Below are positions 5,654 through 39,823 of a stretch of 43,999 bases of DNA, in pieces; position 1 is the stretch's first letter, and each line of letters opens with the position of its first letter. The notes under the pieces are model-generated. The model had not been told where the DNA came from, made no database searches, and worked only from the letters and a program-made list of their open reading frames with translations. The translations under genes were made by a program, and so were the position numbers. Origin of the DNA: a virus; the IMG/VR virus record IMGVR_UViG_3300036770_001292, positions 1-43,999 of that record; one strand, given 5' to 3'.

Positions 5654-5681
5654 ATTATAACATGATTCTACGTAAAATCAA
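5654..5681 (-). promoter_or_regulatory. Sigma-70-like promoter of the primase gene
   Basis: On the minus strand: TTGATT, 16-nt spacer, TATAAT. The -10 ends 3 nt before the first ATG and 6 nt before the second ATG of the primase gene, so the expected transcription start is at the start codon. Confidence 0.6.
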
Positions 5682-5695
5682 TGTATGTTGGATAC

Positions 5696-6478
5696 TTATC
5701 TTGCCAAAATATTGGTTACTGCGCCCGTGTTACTGGTGAACACCATACGCACGAAAGGATGATAACCGTGTATCGTATACCCAAACGTGTCGGTTACGTT
5801 GGAATACTCTGTTGTAGTGATGGGATACCACTCTCCGCCCTGATTGTCTACGGATCCTTCAATAGTAACGTCCCCATTAAATTCAGTATAATGTGCTTGA
5901 AGTGTTAGTATTGGGTTATCCGCTGTATTAATTATGCTACTATAATATGTATTAGCGTTAGGTAACACATTGCTTATACTATTATTTGCATCTAAATTAG
6001 GGAACGGTTGGCCAGTAGGAATCGTAACTTCTTGTGACGGTACGAATGCAGGAAGAACACTATTTACTATGTTCATTTCTCCCCTAGCACCTGCATTTTG
6101 GTCTACATACACAGGATAATCAAACTGCCCTACAGGAATTTCTAAGGTATAATAGCATTTTTGTGCATCAATATCTTCAAGGTCTGCGGCATTTAACTGT
6201 AATACTGCTAAACCATTAACAGAAAGTGTTAGTGTAAGTGCTTTTCTAAGCAGTACTTGAGTACCGTTATAACTGATAATTCTACAGGTAATCTCTTTAC
6301 CTGTAATATCCACGGGTTTTTGTTCTTGGTTAAGAAACTGAAACTGGAGTTGGTTATCAACTCCCTTATGTAAGGTTAGGGGTTTAGCATATACTGGCAT
6401 ATATTTCCTCGGTGAGTTACCTGAAAGCAATACAACGATGTTACGTTGAAAATAATAGAATACAGATGTAGAGTACAC
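5696..6478 (-). CDS. Virion (baseplate/fibre-type) structural protein
   Basis: The protein is predicted beta-rich. It contains YAKPLTLHKGVDNQLQFQF and QEQKPVDITGKEITCRI near the N-terminus, an arrangement reminiscent of N-terminal baseplate/tail-adaptor domains of phage structural proteins. The C-terminal part (ITTTEYSNVTDTFGYTIHG, HPFVRMVFTSNTG) looks like a beta-sandwich. The chosen start is GTG at 6478, preceded by AAGGAG at 7 nt and by a late box at 6496-6505. An internal ATG at 6400, preceded by GAGGA, is a real alternative giving 234 aa. Both have good ribosome binding sites. Confidence 0.75.
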   Translation of the reverse strand: MYSTSVFYYFQRNIVVLLSGNSPRKYMPVYAKPLTLHKGVDNQLQFQFLNQEQKPVDITGKEITCRIISYNGTQVLLRKALTLTLSVNGLAVLQLNAADLEDIDAQKCYYTLEIPVGQFDYPVYVDQNAGARGEMNIVNSVLPAFVPSQEVTIPTGQPFPNLDANNSISNVLPNANTYYSSIINTADNPILTLQAHYTEFNGDVTIEGSVDNQGGEWYPITTTEYSNVTDTFGYTIHGYHPFVRMVFTSNTGAVTNILAR

Positions 6479-6495
6479 AAATTGGCTCCTTAAAC

Positions 6496-6505
6496 ATATT
6501 TATTC
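6496..6505 (-). promoter_or_regulatory. T4-type late promoter box
   Basis: The minus strand reads GAATAAATAT between the divergent genes 5696-6478 and 6571-6951. Transcription from here would give a very short leader carrying the AAGGAG site of the GTG start at 6478. Confidence 0.5.
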
Positions 6506-6570
6506 TATATTTTAGTAAAATATTTGTTTCGGTAAAGGGTGATTAAATAACAGCAGTACATAATAAAAAG

Positions 6571-6951
6571 ATGATTTCACACGATTTTTTTAAAAAGTTA
6601 AGCGAGAACCACCCCTTTATAACAGTGTGTTCCTATGCCAACCAAGATTACGTAGGGATAGTACAAAACAGGGATGATACATGTACCTCATTATATGATT
6701 ATGGCGCTATTATCGATAATGAGTTAAAGTCTAGGTTTCTAGAATTAGGGGATACTTGGTGGTGGGAGAGCAATAGACTAGTACCTATTAATCTATTCCT
6801 TAAGGAAGAATGGATAGTATTTAAGCCCTATCTAAGAACGTTCAATAACAAGAGTTTAGAGATAATACATGGACCTGTATGTAGTATGATGGAACTACAT
6901 AAACGCAGGTCCAAACGCCGTAGCATTACGTTAGTAAAACGTATGCCTTAA
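6571..6951 (+). CDS. Conserved T4-like phage protein, the only plus-strand gene
   Basis: The 126-aa protein has no recognised catalytic motif. It has Trp-rich and charged segments (GDTWWWESNRLVPINLFL) and a strongly basic C-terminus (HKRRSKRRSITLVKRMP), compatible with nucleic-acid binding. It resembles an uncharacterised small protein I recall from non-cyanobacterial T4-like phages. It is divergent from 5696-6478 and convergent with the peptide deformylase gene, and the two stop codons overlap. Only a weak purine stretch precedes the ATG. A TTAAATAA stretch at 6544-6551 could serve as a late promoter. Confidence 0.75.
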   Translation: MISHDFFKKLSENHPFITVCSYANQDYVGIVQNRDDTCTSLYDYGAIIDNELKSRFLELGDTWWWESNRLVPINLFLKEEWIVFKPYLRTFNNKSLEIIHGPVCSMMELHKRRSKRRSITLVKRMP

Positions 6952-7430
6952 CCCTTACGTTTACGTCTTTCTTTTGCTAGTTGCAAACTAAGTTTAGCGA
7001 CTTTGCTATCAAAACATACGCCATTTAAGTGATCGAATTCATGTTGAAATACTCTAGCAGGTAACTCACCTAATTCTTGCTCAACCACATTGCCCGCCAT
7101 TTGCTGATATCGAACTTTCACAGTTTCAGGTCTAGTCACAGTCAGCCATAGTTTAGGAAAACTCAAACAACCCTCTTGGGCACGATTTTCGCCACTGGTT
7201 TCTAATATCTCTGGGTTGATACAGACAATCAACTTGTCTGGATTGCCCATAAGAAAAATTCTCTTCTTGACTCCACATTGTGGTGCTGCTAATCCTATTC
7301 CACCACTTTCAAACATAATCTTAGCCATTGACTTGACTAGTTCAGTGGGATCACCATCGGCTTCAAAATCCCATGGTTCAGACATTTCTCGTAACTGAGG
7401 ATCATCCTCTTTAAGTAATTTTATTTCCAT
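6948..7430 (-). CDS. def: Peptide deformylase
   Basis: The 160-aa protein has all three PDF motifs in order: GIGLAAPQ (residues 44-51), EGCLS (86-90) and HEFDH (130-134). The metal ligands are C88, H130 and H134, and E131 is the catalytic acid. It removes the N-terminal formyl group from new proteins. It is slightly shorter than bacterial enzymes (about 165-190 aa) and lacks a long C-terminal extension, as in other phage-encoded PDFs. The start lies inside the end of the upstream mini-DnaE gene (20-nt overlap). The gene is convergent with 6571-6951. Confidence 0.95.
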   Translation of the reverse strand: MEIKLLKEDDPQLREMSEPWDFEADGDPTELVKSMAKIMFESGGIGLAAPQCGVKKRIFLMGNPDKLIVCINPEILETSGENRAQEGCLSFPKLWLTVTRPETVKVRYQQMAGNVVEQELGELPARVFQHEFDHLNGVCFDSKVAKLSLQLAKERRKRKG

Positions 7431-8001
7431 GTTCCCTCAACAAATTCATGTGTACTACTACTAGGTTTGCATATGCAATAGCATGACTCTTTTTAAAACT
7501 ATAACCTGTATGATCTTTATCCCATACTGATTTATTAATCTCTACAAATGTTTTACCAATCAAATGTCTTTTTGCAGGTCGTATAACTGCTAGAAACATT
7601 GCCAGCCTAGGTATACTATTTACTGGCTCAGGCATCTTACGTAAAGTATCGTATTGATTACCTAAGTGAATCAATTGTTCGACAACTGTTCTGTCTTTTA
7701 GCATATCCCAATTAGGTTCATTCATCAATTCTAATAAATGATTTTCATCACGAACCTTATTATACACATGAACATTCAATATATCTAATTTAAGATATCC
7801 TCTTTCTTCTGCCTCTTCATAATTCAATGATGACATATCATTGATAGGATCATAGGGTATTTCTGTTACATACACTCCAGTTGGATGCTTACGCATAGGA
7901 GTGACGTTACGCATACTTGCAGGTATGTGCTTAATCAGTGATAAAACTTTATCACGATCACCTACGTCAATATCAATGTCACTTTTAAATTTCATAACCA
8001 T
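7411..8001 (-). CDS. Miniature DnaE-like (C-family DNA polymerase) core protein
   Basis: The 196-aa protein carries several signatures of bacterial Pol III alpha in the correct order. SDIDIDVGDRDKV (residues 7-19) matches the catalytic PDxDxDF...R block. HPTGVYVTEIPYDPINDMSSL (39-59) matches the G-V-H..G-V-V..PL-D region. GYLKLDILN (68-76, D73) matches the third aspartate block GLVKxDFLGL. IRPAK (140-144) resembles the ALYRPGP element, and FKKSHAIAYANL (169-180) matches FNKSHAxAYA. Normal DnaE is over 1,000 aa, so most of the fingers, PHP and C-terminal domains are missing. An ATG at 7995 overlapping the upstream stop is an equally good start. Polymerase activity is not established. Confidence 0.75.
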   Translation of the reverse strand: MVMKFKSDIDIDVGDRDKVLSLIKHIPASMRNVTPMRKHPTGVYVTEIPYDPINDMSSLNYEEAEERGYLKLDILNVHVYNKVRDENHLLELMNEPNWDMLKDRTVVEQLIHLGNQYDTLRKMPEPVNSIPRLAMFLAVIRPAKRHLIGKTFVEINKSVWDKDHTGYSFKKSHAIAYANLVVVHMNLLREHGNKIT

Positions 8002-8216
8002 GTTAAACTAAAAAGCAATGCATCCTGCTCGTTTTGAAATTCCCATTTATATACGCCTGGTATGGCTCTGCCGCCCCAAAAGCAACACCACACACCATCT
8101 CTGTTATCTACAACACTCCAGCGTTTGCCAAACTTTTGTTCACACCAAACAGTTTGTGCGGCGTGACTGTCTCCTCTAGATTTAGGTACTGTGATAATAT
8201 ACTTGAAATCCTTCAC
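7992..8216 (-). CDS. Small F-x-L-R-W-tail family protein, 74 aa
   Basis: The protein is Trp/Cys-rich and ends NEQDALLFSLTWL, a variant of the C-terminal tail shared by about a dozen small proteins in this window. The middle includes WSVVDNRDGVWCCFWGG. The start is GTG at 8216, overlapping the exonuclease stop (GTGA) with GGAT upstream. Function unknown. Confidence 0.65.
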   Translation of the reverse strand: MKDFKYIITVPKSRGDSHAAQTVWCEQKFGKRWSVVDNRDGVWCCFWGGRAIPGVYKWEFQNEQDALLFSLTWL

Positions 8217-8761
8217 TTAGTCAATCCAAGTTTTCTATACGCCTCTTGTACGACAATCGCTTGTCTTTCTGCATCTTCGACGGCTTTGTGACTTGTAACG
8301 TGTCCTCCGTCTTTAAGTTTAACTCCCGCAATCTCGTATAAAGTCCTAGTATCTCTAACAGTGTAAAAAGGCCAAGGAATAGGATTAGGCTTATCTGTGA
8401 GTACCTGTCTAAAGGCTGTCTCAGCAACAACCACATCAAATGCAGCACCATTGCTCCAAACAGCACGGCGGTTCCAACAAAACTTATAAAGGGTTTCCAT
8501 GCATTCTCTAAATGATGTGCGTCCCCTGTCTCCAAGTGCCTCTTCCAATGCCTCAGGGCTTTGTTCAGACCACCAACGTAAAGTATCATCGTTAATTACC
8601 CTATTGTGAATTTCAGTTTGTTCTTCTACAGTGGGGCGCAATTCTAAACGCTCAACGACTCCTCGCCCCTTGGGGTCGAACCTAACAGCACCAATAGTTA
8701 AAATGACACAATACGGACTTGTATCTAGTGTCTCCATATCTATCATTATATCATTTGCCAT
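8213..8761 (-). CDS. DEDD-family 3'-5' exonuclease (DexA / ExoVIII-like)
   Basis: The 182-aa protein has the ExoI motif DMETL (D8, E10), an ExoII-type WSNGAAFD segment and the ExoIII motif SHKAVEDAERQ, giving the DEDDh set of two-metal 3'-5' exonucleases. The TLRWWSEQSPEA segment is typical of the RecE C-terminal / Rv2179c-like subfamily, and T4 DexA belongs to the same superfamily. A role in host DNA degradation or recombination end-processing is likely. It lies in a dense run of overlapping genes. A 122-aa hydrophobic reading frame overlapping it is a shadow. Confidence 0.88.
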   Translation of the reverse strand: MANDIMIDMETLDTSPYCVILTIGAVRFDPKGRGVVERLELRPTVEEQTEIHNRVINDDTLRWWSEQSPEALEEALGDRGRTSFRECMETLYKFCWNRRAVWSNGAAFDVVVAETAFRQVLTDKPNPIPWPFYTVRDTRTLYEIAGVKLKDGGHVTSHKAVEDAERQAIVVQEAYRKLGLTK

Positions 8762-9034
8762 TTAATTCTGCCACATTTCCCACATTGTAATCAATCTACT
8801 AGACCATATAGTGACTTCTAATGATTTTGTACCACCACTAAAATCCCAACCATCACCCCTATCACCAAAATTTCTACGACACCATTGTATAACAGTTTTA
8901 GGATCACCCTTTACTTTGAATGTGATCTTGCCATGATCTCTAGGATTCTTTCTGACAATATCGACATACTCTATTACTGGGTTAATACTTAATTCATAAA
9001 ACGGATTACTTAGTGCCATTGCTTGTCCAAACAT
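8762..9034 (-). CDS. Small Trp-rich protein, degenerate F-x-L-R-W-tail family member
   Basis: The 90-aa protein shares the family layout: an amphipathic segment with Trp (VIQWCRRNFGDRGDGWDF), a beta-like EVTIW strand and a C-terminal aromatic tail (LITMWEMWQN) in place of FxLRW. The start is uncertain, because ATG 9034 and ATG 9019 both have weak ribosome binding sites. The gene overlaps the end of the radical SAM gene by 29 nt and its stop touches the exonuclease start (TAAATG). Confidence 0.6.
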   Translation of the reverse strand: MFGQAMALSNPFYELSINPVIEYVDIVRKNPRDHGKITFKVKGDPKTVIQWCRRNFGDRGDGWDFSGGTKSLEVTIWSSRLITMWEMWQN

Positions 9035-11060
9035 TATCTATTTCGGTAACTTCTTGTATTATACTTGAATCTAGATAATTTAGCAAGAGGGCTGGGCGAG
9101 GCCGATTCTGCGGATTGGGCATACTGCTATGTAGTAGACGGCAGTTATAGATTAATGAGCAACCTTTGGGTAATGTGGGCTGTATCATGTTCTTTAAGAA
9201 CCATTCGTTATAGTGACCTCGATAACATAGATTAATATCATAGTCTAGTTTTTGACTATGTGGAACTATACCTGTGCTTGCTGTATCATGATCCATGTCA
9301 AACAATGCCACAATAACTTGTATACCTAATAGGTTTCTATCATAGTTCCATTTTCTAAATCTATGTGGTGTGTCAACGTGTGGGTTAAACCAACTGCTCT
9401 GACTTTCTATAGTGACAATATCGCTAGCATAAAACTCTGCGGTAGGCAAGTATTTTTTTACCTGCTCCCCAATAATATTACTAATTTCTTTCACCTGAGG
9501 CCAATCCATAACAGTTTGGCTCCACCATACACTAATGTCGGGTAGATTCTTAATATCATCACGTTCAGCATATTTCTTATCTTTACTACTTGCACGTACA
9601 GGATGACAAGTATTCAACTTAGAAATAATTGAATCGATCAAATGATTAGGTACAATGTTATCAGTAATAATGTACCCTGGACCGTCAACAAGTTGATTAG
9701 CAACATTTTCTTGTAACGTGCCCTGTATATAATAATCTCCTGGAATAATACCTGCCTCCCATATCTTGTTTAATTCTGTTTGTAACTCAGGAATATAATT
9801 TGCTAGACTTCTGTTTCTAAACTTATCTGATTTAGTTATAAAATGTTTATTCTGTGAGAGATATGTTGAATCTACGATTTGAGGTTCCTCTAACCATTTG
9901 ATAACAATCTTAATAGATTCAATAAATCCATTATTGATAACTTCAGTTGGATGTTCTTTTAAATAGGTATCTATAAATTCTAGTAACTTAGTACCCTTTT
10001 CGATTCCTCGTTTTCTATATTCAGGTGTTAATAAACTAACTAATGCATACAAAGGATGTGATACTCTGTTTACGAAACAGCCCACATCATGTGCCAACGT
10101 GCCATCTGATTTTTTGTATTCTAACAGCATGTTAAGCCAAAACTCAAACAAGTCCATGCATTGTATTGCATTGAATAAACTCACAGTGCAACTTAGTCCT
10201 ATACTAAATTTAGTTTTACTAGGATTAGGATCAAGCACTGATTGTTGAACCATGTTCAAAAATGTTCTAACATTAGATTCAATCTTAGTCCACTTGAATG
10301 GATATCTAATATATTCATTAACTTTTTGATAACCATCGATTGATACAGATACATGTACTGCATTGAATTGATTCCATAATTCAATCAATTCGTCAGTGAT
10401 TCCCGTTAGGTTAGTTACATAACTTAATCGTATTTTTCTGCTTCTACCTTTGTCAATTAGAAGTTTTAAAAACTTAATATGTTCTTCTGATATTGTAGGT
10501 TCACCGCCAATTAGACTTATAGCAACAACGTTAGGAAAATCATTCACTAACTTTTCTGCGGTTACATCATCAATTGAAATACGTTGTAATTTTTTACGTT
10601 GTGATGGATGTATTACCCAAATGTTTTCCCATTCTTCTGTCCAAAAATCACTTAGGTCGATACTGCAAGTCATACACTTGCTATTACACTTTGTACCAAA
10701 CGTTAGGTCTAGATAATAAATGCTATTTGAATCAACATGCTCAACTAATGGAATATCACATTCTTGTAATCCTTTATTCCAAATAGTTCGCATTGATCCT
10801 ATACCATTTTCCTCTGCTTCTTTACAGTTACCACATGCTTCAGGCCATTCACCATTGAGTAATGAACGTCTTATTTCTTTTAAATTATGTGCATTGATTC
10901 TAATATGAGGGTCTTTACCTACAACACCATAGTCATAATGACCGTCTTTGTACATCTTCCAATGGTTAGTTCTTATACCACAACAAGGTATGTATTCTCC
11001 GTAAGAGTTTACGCTAGCAGAACCAAATGCTAGTGAACAGAATATAGGTTTTACTTCCAT
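9006..11060 (-). CDS. Radical SAM (twitch-type) protein fused to a PhyH-like 2OG-Fe(II) dioxygenase
   Basis: The 684-aa protein has two enzymatic halves. Residues 1-100 hold a Cys-rich start (C8, C26, C27) and EACGNCKEAEE (75-83), typical of twitch/SPASM-type phage radical SAM proteins. The radical SAM core has C125-x3-C129-x2-C132 for the 4Fe-4S cluster and the SAM-binding GGEP at 185-188. The C-terminal part (about 460-670) resembles phytanoyl-CoA-dioxygenase-like enzymes: HVD at 561-563 and a distal H644 as iron ligands, with R653 or R655 as a candidate 2-oxoglutarate-binding residue. The substrate is unknown; peptide or small-molecule modification is inference. Its ATG lies inside the last codons of 11051-11443, and it is embedded in the F-x-L-R-W gene cluster. 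Confidence 0.85.
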   Translation of the reverse strand: MEVKPIFCSLAFGSASVNSYGEYIPCCGIRTNHWKMYKDGHYDYGVVGKDPHIRINAHNLKEIRRSLLNGEWPEACGNCKEAEENGIGSMRTIWNKGLQECDIPLVEHVDSNSIYYLDLTFGTKCNSKCMTCSIDLSDFWTEEWENIWVIHPSQRKKLQRISIDDVTAEKLVNDFPNVVAISLIGGEPTISEEHIKFLKLLIDKGRSRKIRLSYVTNLTGITDELIELWNQFNAVHVSVSIDGYQKVNEYIRYPFKWTKIESNVRTFLNMVQQSVLDPNPSKTKFSIGLSCTVSLFNAIQCMDLFEFWLNMLLEYKKSDGTLAHDVGCFVNRVSHPLYALVSLLTPEYRKRGIEKGTKLLEFIDTYLKEHPTEVINNGFIESIKIVIKWLEEPQIVDSTYLSQNKHFITKSDKFRNRSLANYIPELQTELNKIWEAGIIPGDYYIQGTLQENVANQLVDGPGYIITDNIVPNHLIDSIISKLNTCHPVRASSKDKKYAERDDIKNLPDISVWWSQTVMDWPQVKEISNIIGEQVKKYLPTAEFYASDIVTIESQSSWFNPHVDTPHRFRKWNYDRNLLGIQVIVALFDMDHDTASTGIVPHSQKLDYDINLCYRGHYNEWFLKNMIQPTLPKGCSLIYNCRLLHSSMPNPQNRPRPALLLNYLDSSIIQEVTEIDNVWTSNGTK

Positions 11061-11443
11061 CTTAATTCAGCCCATACTTTCTCTTCATCACCGCGCAAGT
11101 AAATGTTTAACTTGTGATCATCAGTATGCCAACACCATGCCGGGTTGAGTTGTACTACTCCTTCAAATCTAGGATCGTCCACAAATAGATATTGCTCACG
11201 CTCTATACTTTTACCCCATGTTTCTATGCACCAATCACGAAATTCATTAAATGCTTTGATTCTATTGATACGATGTGAGTCTACAAACTCAATCATATAT
11301 TTAAAGTTTGGGTAGCCAGTAAATCTAGCATCCATCTTTACAAATTTTGGTTTAATTTCTATCATCTTAGGTGTAAAACTTCCTCTGGCAATTAAAGGTT
11401 TCATTGTAATTCTTGCGGCAGACATAATTCTTTTCTTCATCAT
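11051..11443 (-). CDS. F-x-L-R-W-tail family protein, long member, 130 aa
   Basis: The C-terminus GDEEKVWAELRWK and the FRDWCIETWGK segment match the family layout (Trp-containing helix, then a beta strand, then the tail). It has an extra basic N-terminal extension of about 60 aa rich in Lys, Arg and Ile. Translation start ATG 11443 overlaps the upstream stop (ATGA). Its tail codons contain the ATG of the radical SAM-dioxygenase gene (10-nt overlap), so the two should be co-translated. Function unknown. Confidence 0.65.
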   Translation of the reverse strand: MMKKRIMSAARITMKPLIARGSFTPKMIEIKPKFVKMDARFTGYPNFKYMIEFVDSHRINRIKAFNEFRDWCIETWGKSIEREQYLFVDDPRFEGVVQLNPAWCWHTDDHKLNIYLRGDEEKVWAELRWK

Positions 11444-11670
11444 GTATATAACAGTCTTAGATATGTTGCATATTTTTCATCTTTGAAGAAAAATATAACT
11501 CTTTTACTTTTAATAGTTGTTATCTGACCATTATCTAATTCATATCCTACAACAGGTGGAACATATGCAAATTCAAAATCTTCTGATTTTAACACATTCA
11601 TTTTTTTAAGATCACTAAGTATTTCCCAAAGTTGATTAGTAGATTTTAATTCAATAACACATTCAATCAT
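11440..11670 (-). CDS. Small F-x-L-R-W-like protein, divergent tail, 76 aa
   Basis: The start is set at ATG 11670, which follows GAGGTGG and overlaps the upstream TGA (ATGA). A longer reading frame to 11691 only reads through the upstream gene's tail codons. The C-terminus FFFKDEKYATYLRLLYT keeps the D-E-x-Y/A-x-x-x-L pattern but has lost RW. Function unknown. Confidence 0.6.
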   Translation of the reverse strand: MIECVIELKSTNQLWEILSDLKKMNVLKSEDFEFAYVPPVVGYELDNGQITTIKSKRVIFFFKDEKYATYLRLLYT

Positions 11671-11888
11671 GCCCACCTCAATATAAACCAATTCATTTCT
11701 TTTTTAGCCTGTTCACCTTCAAGGAAAAAGAAGTCAATAAGGTCATTACCATGATGTCCGCCATGGTATTGATTAGTTATGTAATGTGGACAGTTCTTCT
11801 TTGTCCATTTTATAACATCATATAAATCTAATCGTTGACGATTTACAGTAATGTAATTATCTGTAACTAACATGTGATATTCTTTCAT
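11667..11888 (-). CDS. Small F-x-L-R-W-tail protein, 73 aa
   Basis: The C-terminus is EMNWFILRWA. A middle helix DVIKWTKKNCPHY matches the W-x-x-x-N/H position of relatives. It has a His-rich stretch (YHGGHHGND), unusual in the family. The ATG at 11888 follows GAGGTGG and overlaps the upstream stop (ATGA). Function unknown. Confidence 0.65.
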   Translation of the reverse strand: MKEYHMLVTDNYITVNRQRLDLYDVIKWTKKNCPHYITNQYHGGHHGNDLIDFFFLEGEQAKKEMNWFILRWA

Positions 11889-12262
11889 GACCACCTCAAT
11901 GCTAATATTGTAGCATACTTAGCATGCTTTTGTCTAATCTTTATGGTAAGTCTATTGGCTGCTACATCGTCATTTGCTACACCCCAGTTCCAATCCCAGC
12001 CCTGTTTACCAATATATTTTTCCATATATGGGCGATAGTGTTCGTTTGGATCTGCGCTTTCTACAAAATACCTACTAGGTCCTATAGTCCAATCCCATTG
12101 CGGCATACTCTCGTTAATCTCAGCCAAGCCCACAGGCCATTTAACATTAACAACAACTCCCGGCATAAATCTCCACCATAATTGCTGTACAATGTTTAAT
12201 CCACAAGGAAGATATCTTCCTGATGGTAATTGAAATAAATTTTTAATTTCCCATTTGGCCAT
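11885..12262 (-). CDS. F-x-L-R-W-tail protein, long member, 125 aa
   Basis: The C-terminus is KHAKYATILALRWS. It is very Trp-rich (WWRFMPG, WPVG, WDWTIG, WDWNWG). The ATG at 12262 overlaps the upstream stop by one base (TAATG) and is led by GAGGTGG from the preceding gene's tail. Function unknown. Confidence 0.65.
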   Translation of the reverse strand: MAKWEIKNLFQLPSGRYLPCGLNIVQQLWWRFMPGVVVNVKWPVGLAEINESMPQWDWTIGPSRYFVESADPNEHYRPYMEKYIGKQGWDWNWGVANDDVAANRLTIKIRQKHAKYATILALRWS

Positions 12263-12507
12263 TATGACCACCTCAATATAAACACGGTAGCATCCCGATC
12301 ATCTTCAAATCGTAATCTATCATATCCGGGTGCGAAGCCTAAACCGTTATTACCGGGCCCTGGATCAATCTCACACCCTTGTTCCTTCAACCATGCCCGA
12401 AAATCCTCACGCCAAACCCGATCATCGTTGGCTAAATTAACCAAGCGATTATGTCTATACCATACCTGGATATTGCTTATAATATTAAAATCATTAATAT
12501 AAGTCAT
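12262..12507 (-). CDS. Small F-x-L-R-W-tail protein, 81 aa
   Basis: The C-terminus is FEDDRDATVFILRWS, one of the two best-matching tails. The central part has FRAWLKEQGCEIDPGPG, the family's Trp helix followed by a turn. The ATG at 12507 is a TAATG overlap with GAGGTGG upstream. Function unknown. Confidence 0.68.
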   Translation of the reverse strand: MTYINDFNIISNIQVWYRHNRLVNLANDDRVWREDFRAWLKEQGCEIDPGPGNNGLGFAPGYDRLRFEDDRDATVFILRWS

Positions 12508-12734
12508 TAACTCCACCTCAATATAAACACGGTAGCAGCCTTCTCATCAAACTCGGCATAGACCTTAAAGATATTATGATTGGTTGGATCAAACTCTTTT
12601 ATGACAGCGCAATTGAAATATTCCGCAAACACAGGTTCTAATGTTTCATACTTGGGCATGTCCAAATGCTCTCTCAACCATACGGCAGCATTGAGCACTG
12701 GGCCCTTCCATCCTGGTAATCTTACTGTATTCAT
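12507..12734 (-). CDS. Small F-x-L-R-W-tail protein, 75 aa
   Basis: The C-terminus FDEKAATVFILRWS is nearly identical to that of the neighbour 12262-12507, while the N-terminal parts differ. It has AAVWLREHLDMP as the Trp helix. The true start is ATG 12734 (TAATG overlap, GAGGTGG upstream). A longer frame to 12758 is read-through of the preceding tail. Function unknown. Confidence 0.68.
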   Translation of the reverse strand: MNTVRLPGWKGPVLNAAVWLREHLDMPKYETLEPVFAEYFNCAVIKEFDPTNHNIFKVYAEFDEKAATVFILRWS

Positions 12735-12886
12735 TATGACCACCTCAAAGTGAACCAAACATAATCACTCTCACTACGGAAGTGTATGGTTTCCCATGCG
12801 GCAGACCATTCACCTTGTAGATTATCATAGCACCACCGTACGATATCTTCCCACGGTGCTACCCCGGTGTATTGCCAATGTGTCAT
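12734..12886 (-). CDS. Very small F-x-L-R-W-tail protein, 50 aa
   Basis: The gene is easily missed because of its length. It runs from ATG 12886 to TAA 12734, begins MTHWQYTGVAPWEDIVRW and ends SESDYVWFTLRWS. It keeps the helix (EDIVRWCYDNLQ), strand (ETIHFRS) and tail of the family in minimal form. Both ends use the family junction: the start overlaps the upstream TGA after GAGGTGG, and its own tail codons supply GAGGTGG for the next gene. This may be the family's minimal domain. Confidence 0.75.
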   Translation of the reverse strand: MTHWQYTGVAPWEDIVRWCYDNLQGEWSAAWETIHFRSESDYVWFTLRWS

Positions 12887-13116
12887 AGCCACCTCAACTT
12901 AAACATAATATAATCTTTTTCGTATCTAAATTTTACTTCAACATAAAATTCATACCAACGCCAACGTGAATGCCTATAAGGCATGTCAATGTTGTCCCGT
13001 ATCCAATCAAGTATTTCAAAGTACCTGTCAGCATCATCATTGACCAAATCTACTATAACTACTGGCCATTTAGAATTATCCCAATACTCAAAATTTAATC
13101 TTTCAGAATTTTCCAT
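12883..13116 (-). CDS. Small F-x-L-R-W-tail protein, 77 aa
   Basis: The C-terminus is EKDYIMFKLRWL. The Trp helix is YFEILDWIRDNIDMPYR, with an aromatic RWRWYEFYVEVKF strand. The ATG at 13116 lies inside the end of 13095-13445 without a clear Shine-Dalgarno. Function unknown. Confidence 0.65.
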   Translation of the reverse strand: MENSERLNFEYWDNSKWPVVIVDLVNDDADRYFEILDWIRDNIDMPYRHSRWRWYEFYVEVKFRYEKDYIMFKLRWL

Positions 13117-13445
13117 ACTAGTTGTTTATCTAATTGGTCCCGTATAGAAATTGCCTCTTCTTCTGTTTTTGCGACAACCCCCATAACTACATATCGTTTA
13201 CTAATAGCATCTACTAGATGACCCTGATAGTTCTGATAAAAACTGATACTGTCAATATAAAGTATTTCCCAACTGTCTAGTCTTTGTACCATTAGTCTAG
13301 CAATATCTATTTTACAAGTCTCAAATAAAAACTTCAATAGATTCTCAAAGCCCGATCTGGTGTGTATAGGGACAAACTTATCTGACGGCCAAGTTACTAA
13401 GTAACCTTTATCTGACTTTGTTATTATGAAAGGACTTATAGACAT
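13095..13445 (-). CDS. Hypothetical protein, 116 aa, within the small-gene cluster
   Basis: The protein is unrecognised. Several beta strands are followed by a C-terminal helix (KTEEEAISIRDQLDKQLVWKILKD). It does not have the F-x-L-R-W tail, though TEEEAISIRDQLDKQ sits where relatives have D-x-x-A. The ATG lies in the last codons of 13436-13645. Confidence 0.6.
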   Translation of the reverse strand: MSISPFIITKSDKGYLVTWPSDKFVPIHTRSGFENLLKFLFETCKIDIARLMVQRLDSWEILYIDSISFYQNYQGHLVDAISKRYVVMGVVAKTEEEAISIRDQLDKQLVWKILKD

Positions 13446-13645
13446 TTTAAATTAAACACTATTGCATCTTTTTCATCTTTAAACATAAAGTCCATGTACT
13501 CTTCAGTTGGATGAGTGATGAATTTATTGCCCGGTAATCCAAATTGTTCTATGGCTGAGGCGCATACTTCATTCCAACTTGATATAGTGTCCCCATGTTT
13601 CCATGGAATACGAACTAGATGTTTATAATTAATATCCGGCTTCAT
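13436..13645 (-). CDS. Small F-x-L-R-W-tail family protein, 69 aa
   Basis: The tail is FKDEKDAIVFNLKCL, where Cys replaces Trp. The N-terminal half has VRIPWKHGD, similar to the VPKSRGDSH of 7992-8216, followed by a helix (NEVCASAIEQFGLPG). This shared N-terminal strand supports common ancestry with that distant member. The ATG overlaps the end of the zinc-finger gene by 17 nt. Function unknown. Confidence 0.65.
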   Translation of the reverse strand: MKPDINYKHLVRIPWKHGDTISSWNEVCASAIEQFGLPGNKFITHPTEEYMDFMFKDEKDAIVFNLKCL

Positions 13646-14354
13646 TCAATAAACTCTTAACTTGTTGTACTGTTTCTGTACTACGCTTGAATTTAATTGC
13701 CCATAGTTCAGGGTTAATATAGTCAAGTATCATTTTGACTTGTGTTTCATCAAGTTCATCTAAAAACTTTTTACCACTTTCGCTATGATACAAGACCCAT
13801 GGACTAATTTTACCTGTTGTAATCGAATAGCAAATCTTATTACGATTACCATATCTTAGTACATCTTTAGCAGGTATCTTATCTATTGTGGCTAAGTCTA
13901 GCATTGTTTCTATACTACGTGCTACCGCATCCATGCTATCTTCTTCACGCAAATAACCTACAAGAAACTTAGTGTAGTTTGTATCACTAGTCCAAGTATC
14001 AATTTTAATTTTGTTACTCAATAGCCAATCAATATATCTGCTAACATTGATGACATTGACCTCGCTACAATAGATGCCAAACTTAACGAAGGCTAGATAA
14101 TATGAACTCTTAACAAAGTCCATATAATCACGTTTCTTTTTCGTAGCCGTATTCTTATTATAGAATTCTAACCAAGATTGAAATCCTATCCTATTACCTT
14201 GTTTGTCTTTGTCTTGCCACCTACGCTTAGTTTCGCATATGTGATTGAAAACCGTAGACTCACGCAAAAATGTGCGGCCACAAAACTCGCAACCAAAATT
14301 AGTTGCCGTTGTCTTTTTCGTATTGTTCGATTTCGTTATCACTAATGATGCCAT
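13629..14354 (-). CDS. Conserved T4-like zinc-finger protein, 241 aa
   Basis: An N-terminal C2HC-type finger (C22-x2-C25-x12-H38-x-C40) precedes ETKRRWQDKDKQGNRIGF. A long helical domain follows (SSYYLAFVKFGIYCSEVNVI, DTNYTKFLVGYLREED). The layout matches a conserved T4-like protein of unknown function that I recall from cyanophage and related genomes. Nucleic-acid binding is inference. The 56-nt overlap with the gp62-like gene puts the start at ATG 14354 in some doubt; GTG 14342 is the next option. Confidence 0.75.
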   Translation of the reverse strand: MASLVITKSNNTKKTTATNFGCEFCGRTFLRESTVFNHICETKRRWQDKDKQGNRIGFQSWLEFYNKNTATKKKRDYMDFVKSSYYLAFVKFGIYCSEVNVINVSRYIDWLLSNKIKIDTWTSDTNYTKFLVGYLREEDSMDAVARSIETMLDLATIDKIPAKDVLRYGNRNKICYSITTGKISPWVLYHSESGKKFLDELDETQVKMILDYINPELWAIKFKRSTETVQQVKSLLNEAGY

Positions 14355-36004: not shown

Positions 36005-36929
36005 AATATTTTTGAAAACCTTCTTCTACATCGACCTTAGGATCAAATCCAAAATCAGTACGTGCCGCGTCAATGTTTAATGCTCCACGACTAGGAAAAT
36101 CGGGATCTCTATCTCGTACTTCAATAGTTCCCCTACCTACAATGCTTACTGCTAGTGTGGCAGCATATAGTAAACTACGGCTATGACTTTTAGTTATGTT
36201 GTAAATTTTGTTATTGGTGTTTTCGCTGAGTGCGGCATTGACGATTCCATCGGCTGCATCTTCAACATATGTGAAGTCGAGGGTTTCTCCTGTTCCATTG
36301 ACCTTGAGCATTCCACCTCGCATTGCAGTGAGCATAAACTTTGCAATAACTCTATCTTCCACATCAAGAGGCCCGTATACTGCGCTAGGACGAATAATAA
36401 CATGACTAAAACAATTTCTGCGTGTGTAATCTTCAACAAGGCGTTCTCCTGCAAGTTTTAAAATCCCATATTGACCTTGTGGCTTACAGTTATAATCCTC
36501 AGTCACATCATCAGGGAAAGTACCATACACCATACTACTACTGATGTATACAAATTTCTTTACATTATATTTTTTACTTAGTTCACAAAGGTTTAGTAGA
36601 CCTTCGCTCATAACTCTGCTACCAATTATTGGATTGGCGTTGACAACTTTCTGTCTTGGAAAACTTGCCATGTGAATCACAATATCAAACTTCTGTCCGG
36701 CAAACAACCAATCCATATTACGTTGATCACAGATATCAAATCGATAAACAAAAGGAGTTTTAATTTTCTTCTTTCGTTCTTTCATCAAATAATCTATTTC
36801 ATCTTGAGGTATAATTCCATAGTTTGTATATGTGTCTGTAATACAAACTTCGTGTCCTAAACTTTCTAATTTAGCGACAACATGATGACCAATAAGTCCC
36901 ATGCCTCCGGTTACTAATATTTTACTCAT
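35949..36929 (-). CDS. NAD-dependent epimerase/dehydratase (extended SDR)
   Basis: The 326-aa protein has the nucleotide-binding GGMGLIG near the N-terminus, a FVYISSSMVYG strand and the catalytic YGILK (Tyr-x3-Lys). Like GalE/RmlB relatives it should modify a nucleotide sugar, probably feeding the aminotransferase whose start overlaps its end. The product may decorate host glycan or virion; unknown. Confidence 0.9.
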   Translation of the reverse strand: MSKILVTGGMGLIGHHVVAKLESLGHEVCITDTYTNYGIIPQDEIDYLMKERKKKIKTPFVYRFDICDQRNMDWLFAGQKFDIVIHMASFPRQKVVNANPIIGSRVMSEGLLNLCELSKKYNVKKFVYISSSMVYGTFPDDVTEDYNCKPQGQYGILKLAGERLVEDYTRRNCFSHVIIRPSAVYGPLDVEDRVIAKFMLTAMRGGMLKVNGTGETLDFTYVEDAADGIVNAALSENTNNKIYNITKSHSRSLLYAATLAVSIVGRGTIEVRDRDPDFPSRGALNIDAARTDFGFDPKVDVEEGFQKYYEWLSNSPFWLSKTIPQS

Positions 36930-37167
36930 ATTTCAATTTCCAAAATGTATAATCTTCGGGTTTTAGTACAGCCTTTATAATAACCTCATGTCCATATATA
37001 TCGAGGTTAGGTATTAAATTCCACGTAGGAGGCTCAACTGAATTTTTCATAATCCATTGTCCTGGTTCACTGTGTTCCCAGTTATATAATGGTTCGGCAG
37101 CATACAACTGTGGATCTTCTACATCAGCCATGCGAAATTTATGAACTATAACATTTATATTTTTCAT
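36922..37167 (-). CDS. Small F-x-L-R-W-like tail protein outside the cluster, 81 aa
   Basis: The C-terminus KPEDYTFWKLKYE fits the family pattern (D-Y-x-x-W/F-x-L-K-Y). The middle is Trp/Pro-rich (YNWEHSEPGQWIM, EPPTWNLIP). The start is coupled by ATGA to thyA, and its tail codons overlap the epimerase ATG out of frame, as with other family members. Function unknown. Confidence 0.6.
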   Translation of the reverse strand: MKNINVIVHKFRMADVEDPQLYAAEPLYNWEHSEPGQWIMKNSVEPPTWNLIPNLDIYGHEVIIKAVLKPEDYTFWKLKYE

Positions 37168-39568: not shown

Positions 39569-39823
39569 TTAGGACCACTTCAATTCGTAGAACACCGCTT
39601 CCTGAGGATCTTCGAAAGCGGGAACTTCTGATGGTACACCCAAAAATGAGGGTTCGCTAGATTCTAAAGTTGTAACTATACAGAAACGTCCCCTTAATGA
39701 TTCTAATATCCACTGTTTGCTTTCGTGTGTAATGGGTGTTTTGGCTACTATAAAATGGCGCGGGAAAATATTAATTTCCCGTTCCATAAACCAAGTATGT
39801 ATATTCAATTCAAAATCAATCAT
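39569..39823 (-). CDS. Small F-x-L-R-W-tail family protein, isolated member, 84 aa
   Basis: The tail EDPQEAVFYELKWS matches the family, yet no gene follows closely (58-nt gap downstream). The tail is therefore conserved here without serving as a ribosome binding site for another gene. It has a beta-strand region (FCIVTTLESSEP) and is coupled by ATGA to the 124-aa gene. Function unknown. Confidence 0.65.
   Translation of the reverse strand: MIDFELNIHTWFMEREINIFPRHFIVAKTPITHESKQWILESLRGRFCIVTTLESSEPSFLGVPSEVPAFEDPQEAVFYELKWS

Follow-up and report, generated by a model that had tools for sequence, protein, structure and literature searches.

Small genes in the replication module

The virus record IMGVR_UViG_3300036770_001292 (43,999 nucleotides; the whole analyzed stretch is hereafter called the window) is probably a partial genome from an uncultured tailed phage of the jumbo type, and it carries an island of small genes that are the subject of this work. 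The window encodes a T4-type terminase and a replication module with a UvsW-like helicase, a primase, a DnaB-like helicase, and a 3'-5' exonuclease. On the minus strand, from position 14354 down to 6948, each gene abuts or overlaps its successor, and most of the small genes that an earlier note on this DNA had listed as one expanded family with a shared F-x-L-R-W ending lie inside this run. The listed genes all exist as open reading frames (ORFs) of the minus strand, at or near where they had been placed, with some starts over-extended; the true starts of 12734, 12507, 12262, 11885, 11667, and 11440 are internal ATGs located 6 to 24 nucleotides (nt) inward of the called ORF starts. Genes are named by their lower coordinate. 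Unless otherwise indicated, the E-values below come from a leave-window-out profile, from which all window rows had been removed, searched against the 230 ORFs of the window.

13436..13645, minus strand: family member, 69 amino acids (aa), tail FNLKCL, first gene of the island; E 8e-19
12883..13116, minus strand: family member, 77 aa, tail MFKLRWL; E 2e-18; AlphaFold model
12734..12886, minus strand: family member, 50 aa, the shortest copy, tail WFTLRWS; E 4e-11; start in an ATGA overlap
12507..12734, minus strand: family member with a weak score, tail VFILRWS; E 2e-3, and 2e-6 with the 7992-started profile
12262..12507, minus strand: family member, 81 aa, tail VFILRWS; E 2e-6, and 1.8e-9 with the A4 profile
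11885..12262, minus strand: probable member, 125 aa, tail ILALRWS; E 9e-4
11667..11888, minus strand: family member with a weak score, 73 aa, tail WFILRWA; E 0.04, and 3e-5 with the A4 profile
11440..11670, minus strand: probable member, degraded tail YLRLLYT; E only 0.02
11051..11443, minus strand: family member, 130 aa, tail WAELRWK; E 7e-10; 10-nt overlap
8762..9034, minus strand: family member, variant tail TMWEMWQN, following the radical SAM gene; E 2e-12
7992..8216, minus strand: family member, 74 aa, tail LFSLTWL; E 3e-15; AlphaFold model
39569..39823, minus strand: possible distant member, tail FYELKWS; E 0.0085, 1e-4 with the A4 profile, and 9e-4 in a whole-record search
36922..37167, minus strand: earlier-claimed member, unconfirmed, ending in FWKLKYE; recovered by no profile
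13629..14354, minus strand: conserved anchor gene upstream of the island, PHROG 11058, function not assigned

One diverged domain

These genes share common descent and carry one diverged domain, with a confidence that is graded from gene to gene. Iterated profiles begun from single members and run on 3,567 non-identical ORFs (80 related contigs plus the window) recovered one another. Even the profiles started from 11440 and 11667, among the weakest genes, reached other members at 1e-7 or better: the first found 13436 at 1e-7 and 7992 at 8e-5, and the second reached 13436, 12883, and 12734. For 12 of the 13 claimed genes, the leave-window-out profile gave a top or near-top rank among the window ORFs. 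Seven scored E<=2e-6, followed by a weak tier (11885, 12507, 39569, 11440, and 11667) with values of 9e-4 to 0.04, which for 11440, 11667, 12507, and 39569 are insufficient if taken singly. Cross-recovery by a profile built from other phages, a check that the earlier note had proposed, thus retrieved 7 of the 11 local genes strongly and 4 weakly. The two distant genes fared less well, as 39569 scored weakly and 36922, whose end EDYTFWKLKYE resembles the family tail, was not recovered at all.

All 208 non-redundant members found in 168 sequences were on the coding strand. This is a useful control because the opposite strand held more of the candidate ORFs (2,768 of about 4,790). Furthermore, a profile made only from proteins of the cultured Sinorhizobium phage Phosso (PV764938) picked up 123 family members in the IMG/VR set; all were on the coding strand, and the window supplied four. 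Tryptophan content is 5.6% in the family, against 1.5% in comparison.

Searches of Pfam, PHROGs, NCBIfam, and PADLOC gave no assignment, and no model matched more than two members. The Pfam domain HAD_SAK_2 matched 2 of 86 members at 2.7e-5 and was not traceable in 20 members scanned singly. A DNA-mimic role was considered and rejected, with one weak DMP12 profile match (E 0.044, 23 residues) and a net charge near zero. Literature searches found no paper on the family.

The tail as the last helix of the fold

When the last 14 residues were removed, single-query profiles of the bodies found only close orthologs and did not recover the other paralogs; therefore, the deep detectable signal resides mainly in the tail helix, and it is the fold evidence that ties the bodies together. 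Two mutually dissimilar members, 12883 and 7992, were folded with AlphaFold from alignments that had some rows in common. Both models adopt the same beta-alpha-beta-beta-alpha order, with mean predicted local distance difference test (pLDDT) values of 87.2 and 90.9, respectively, and in both the tail lies inside the fold, as helix 66-76 of 12883 and helix 63-73 of 7992. According to these models, the F-x-L-R-W tail is the final structural core helix of the domain and not a docking tag. In relatives, the final two tail residues drift while F-x-L is kept (FSLACQ, FSLKVE, FELCCG, and FKLAFG), and tryptophan was penultimate in 95 of 116 distinct IMG/VR matches to a tail pattern, which places the pattern at the extreme end of the protein.

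The suggestion that a constant docking tail had been joined to variable bodies is not the most apt description of these genes. Since the fold is shared and the tail is its C-terminal helix, the genes are better described as one diverged domain than as a constant tail on unrelated bodies. The statement that the N-terminal parts differ holds for their sequences and fails for the fold common to the 12883 and 7992 models, and the family itself stands on the leave-window-out profiles together with these two concordant models. Neither of the refuting outcomes named in the earlier note was thus observed.

Against the Protein Data Bank (PDB), Foldseek found nothing significant for either model, the best hits being a DCoH-like RuBisCO factor for the first (E 0.68, template modeling [TM] score 0.48) and a mutase for the second (E 0.30). 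Searches of viral models returned many small uncharacterized proteins of uncultured phages, as well as proteins of Atu_ph07 and BcepSauron. The weak structural neighbors include RRM, DCoH, and ACT domains, and one could propose that the copies are nucleic-acid-binding regulators with part of an RRM/DCoH-like fold, each recognizing different RNAs or DNA sites in replication or transcription, as would also suit an island among replication genes and the frequency of aromatic residues on the strands. We consider this unlikely: no PDB match was better than E 0.3, and the mean net charge is slightly negative (-1.3). None of the 208 members had the catalytic signature of DCoH (pterin-4a-carbinolamine dehydratase, PCD; Foldseek E 0.7 to 2) or the RNP1 motif of RRM domains. 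The fourth RRM strand is absent as well, as both AlphaFold models stop at the second helix.

Tail DNA and probable translation coupling

The tail has a second property at the DNA level. The window has six exact copies of TTGAGGTGG. They all occupy successive junctions in the stretch from 12897 to 11673, and each precedes an ATG by 2 or 5 nt, a spaced pattern expected 0.01 times in the window. In frame, TTGAGGTGG reads Leu-Arg-Trp, and as mRNA its GAGGTG fits the Shine-Dalgarno (SD) consensus, with GAGG 5 to 8 nt before the start.

12889..12897, minus strand: junction, TTGAGGTGG with GAGG 5 nt ahead of ATG 12886
12740..12748, minus strand: junction, TTGAGGTGG ahead of ATG 12734
12513..12521, minus strand: junction, TTGAGGTGG ahead of ATG 12507
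12268..12276, minus strand: junction, TTGAGGTGG ahead of ATG 12262
11891..11899, minus strand: junction, TTGAGGTGG ahead of ATG 11888
11673..11681, minus strand: junction, TTGAGGTGG ahead of ATG 11670

At these six successive junctions, from 12883/12734 to 11667/11440, the genes overlap by 4 or 1 nt. The 11051 and 7992 junctions use the tail differently, the ATG being made from its own A|TGG; in 11051, the AGA-TGG codons yield the start of the next gene within a 10-nt overlap. Across relatives, the tail arginine is AGG in 55 of 106 cases, compared with 49 of 662 arginine codons (about 7%) elsewhere in family genes, counted in a slightly smaller set. Of 80 tails with a start 4 to 12 nt further on, 52 use AGG, compared with 3 of the other 26 (Fisher p 2e-6). 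Overlaps of -4 and -1 are known to couple translation, reinitiation is often stronger with internal SD motifs (PMC6728339, PMC10666635), and termination-reinitiation at such overlaps has been established in E. coli and Haloferax (PMC6728339). Judging from the nucleotide sequence, the tail DNA probably doubles as a translation-coupling signal, and part of the R-W constancy in the window phage would follow from the same DNA serving as an SD site.

An extreme version of this idea would make the tail a translation signal only, L-R-W being merely TTGAGGTGG as read and the proteins otherwise unrelated. The position of all six window copies at junctions and the strong AGG bias agree with it, but in the GC-richer Phosso the F-K-L-R/T-W tail is written mostly in CGN, ACC, or GCN codons without an SD, and members without a near downstream start still keep LRW. 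These two observations also contradict the tail as a sole SD artifact and, because of them, we consider that the protein sequence of the tail is selected too. Additionally, conservation extends to F, D/A, and L ahead of the SD, where codon agreement is barely above usage expectation, and both AlphaFold models share one fold. A pure translation signal is hardly credible in view of these data.

We also rejected the tail as a recombination module. For identical tail residues in paralogs with dissimilar bodies, codons agreed in 53% of cases when the paralogs shared a contig and in 52% when they did not, with 46% expected from usage, and thus there is no recent exchange in general. One apparent exception, judged by eye, is the pair 12262-12290 and 12507-12536 (minus strand), where 24 nt at the gene ends are identical (gctaccgtgtttatattgaggtgg) and the bodies differ; a recent conversion or duplication is possible there.

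Family size and distribution

Copies per record were counted by profile alone (E<=0.01, E-values per genome) in records that may be fragments, and were checked gene by gene only in Phosso. The highest counts were 95 (417-kb record), 80 (465 kb), 80 (436 kb), 76 (462 kb), and 65 (608 kb), followed by 60 copies in each of two smaller records (277 and 183 kb) and 5 to 33 in others. The five records with the highest counts exceed 400 kb, and each has a terminase and a homolog of gene 13629. The earlier remark that a phage rarely keeps this many paralogs of one tiny domain therefore greatly understates the family, with up to about 95 in single related giant phages. Phosso has about 53 copies (40 by a separate search at E<=0.1), Atu_ph07 up to 8, and PA5oct 3. 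In Phosso (5672-14020), 13 members follow one another in about 8 kb. Individually promoted cassettes were not supported in this phage, as TTGAC-type promoters precede 3 of 53 members and 31 of 326 controls and are thus no commoner.

A degenerate exact 27-nt tail pattern, used to scan DNA, found 66 stretches in IMG/VR versus only 3 in bacterial and archaeal genomes totaling 257 billion bases; two of these 3 matches resemble prophage copies. Apparent prophages hold pairs of members in Novosphingobium guangzhouense (L395, 2034-2264 and 2939-3295) and in Rhizobium sp. 2MFCol3.1 (L393, 4566-5245). Convincing members were not found in the cyanophages P-SSM2 and S-SSM7, the pelagiphage HTVC008M, coliphage 121Q, XacN1, or phage G.

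Selection, turnover, and genomic neighbors

Purifying selection is clear in every copy tested, and it is weaker than in neighboring genes. The ratio of nonsynonymous to synonymous substitution rates (dN/dS) ranged from 0.02 to 0.48 in 28 family ortholog pairs (median, 0.195), versus a median of 0.074 in 57 comparisons of neighboring ORFs, a few of which overlap other frames (Mann-Whitney p ~9e-5). Therefore, these genes are kept as proteins and yet evolve faster than their neighbors. The array might alternatively be dispensable filler, a self-duplicating small-gene cassette of little function, for which the high copy number, high turnover, and weaker constraint could be cited; no dN/dS value approaches 1, however, and copy pairs persist in the compact apparent prophages of Rhizobium and Novosphingobium, which makes filler quite improbable.

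Orthologs of the window genes 13436, 12883, 11440, 11051, 8762, and 7992 occur in close relatives; that of 11885 lies at L004:8136, with the tail VLNWA. Those of 12734, 12262, and 12507 were not found in the nearest contig, L001. At least 80 IMG/VR contigs and 61 records of cultured phages have a homolog of gene 13629. In the window, gene 13436 overlaps the end of 13629 by 17 nt, and in 61 of 76 relatives the 13629 homolog is followed within 60 nt by a family member. The number of copies following this gene varies from 0 to 8 in the 33 relatives whose sequence continues for 5 kb or more beyond it.

The near fixation of the 13436-type member beside 13629, and the fact that coupled overlapping genes often code for subunits of heteromeric complexes (PMC10666635), may be taken to indicate subunits or adaptors of a large phage assembly (a virion, replication compartment, or polymerase complex) with one position per copy. 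Such a fixed assembly is at odds with copy numbers of 0 to 8 at one locus and 3 to 95 among phages, and the three PA5oct members have no tandem mass spectrometry note, unlike some neighboring products. An assembly role is thus also unlikely in our judgment.

Other genes of the island deserve mention. A 684-aa protein with a radical SAM domain and a PhyH-type dioxygenase domain is encoded mid-island (9006-11060, minus strand), and its place is occupied in L029 by a 237-aa ORF with a similar C-terminal end. A conserved, tail-less 116-aa gene without a family match lies between two family members (13095-13445, minus strand) and has orthologs in relatives. Within the exonuclease gene 8213-8761, a 122-aa ORF in another frame (8221-8589, minus strand) is also open in L001 and L004; its dN/dS is near 1 at low dS, and either overprinting or a frame shadow may explain it. 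The 196-aa protein at 7411-8001 (minus strand) has matches restricted to parts of DNA polymerase families, and the polymerase may be split in these phages.

Possible function and significance

The explanation that we favor, if only tentatively, is a lineage-specific expansion of one small single-domain protein into a co-translated set of host-interacting proteins, for takeover or counter-defense. The gene would duplicate, its copies diverge, and the repertoire grow; termination-reinitiation would couple translation along the array, a gene's SD core lying in the tail DNA of its predecessor; the copies would each have their own binding partner, in all likelihood from the host proteins; and the whole set would act as a host-takeover or counter-defense repertoire. 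Our confidence in host binding is limited because it draws on what is generally known of expanded sets of small phage genes. The host-factor binders or decoys suggested in the earlier note are likewise conjectural. Several observations weigh against this explanation: the defense library gave no match, dN/dS values well below 1 give no indication that an arms race acts on these residues, the island is lodged within a replication module with no obvious takeover region around it, and many non-family overlaps in these phages have no SD, which bears on the coupling.

A bolder formulation, which we find doubtful as a whole, is that an undescribed superfamily constitutes the largest phage paralog set, with up to about 95 small Trp-rich domains per genome acting as individually specialized binders, whose conserved C-terminal helix would double as a ribosome-binding site chaining the genes into one translated array. 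Giant phages are rich in unassigned small genes, and if one domain accounts for up to about 65 to 95 of them per genome, one structure and a few interaction tests could explain a sizeable part. Sinorhizobium meliloti and Phosso, with its approximately 53 copies, form a cultured host-phage pair in which this is testable now. Codons that served both the protein core and ribosome binding would also offer a clean, testable case of overlapping coding constraints.

Comparison with known systems

DCoH-like, RRM-like, and ACT-like folds (PDB 4low, 1usm, 5v0s, and 7xx9) arrange their strands and helices similarly over about 60 residues (TM 0.41 to 0.50), but with E-values of 0.7 to 3 and without their sequence signatures, so homology is not demonstrated. 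Proteins of Atu_ph07 (Agrobacterium), PA5oct (Pseudomonas), and Phosso belong to the same family by profile, and in Atu_ph07 also by structure search; they are recorded only as hypothetical proteins, and Phosso has far more copies. In having ATGA and TAATG overlaps and an SD within the coding part of the preceding gene, the array resembles described termination-reinitiation systems (PMC6728339, PMC10666635), whereas here, as known from sequence alone, the SD occupies the same conserved-tail codons of six successive genes. The closest precedent for the expansion is Bacillus phage G, a jumbo phage that likewise keeps one small domain in dozens of paralogs; its zinc-ribbon protein has about 35 copies, an expansion that the authors called unprecedented in 2021 (PMC7824862). 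The zinc ribbon is a different domain, and phage G itself lacks the present family, which, in contrast, reaches 65 to 95 copies per record and is spread over many phages.

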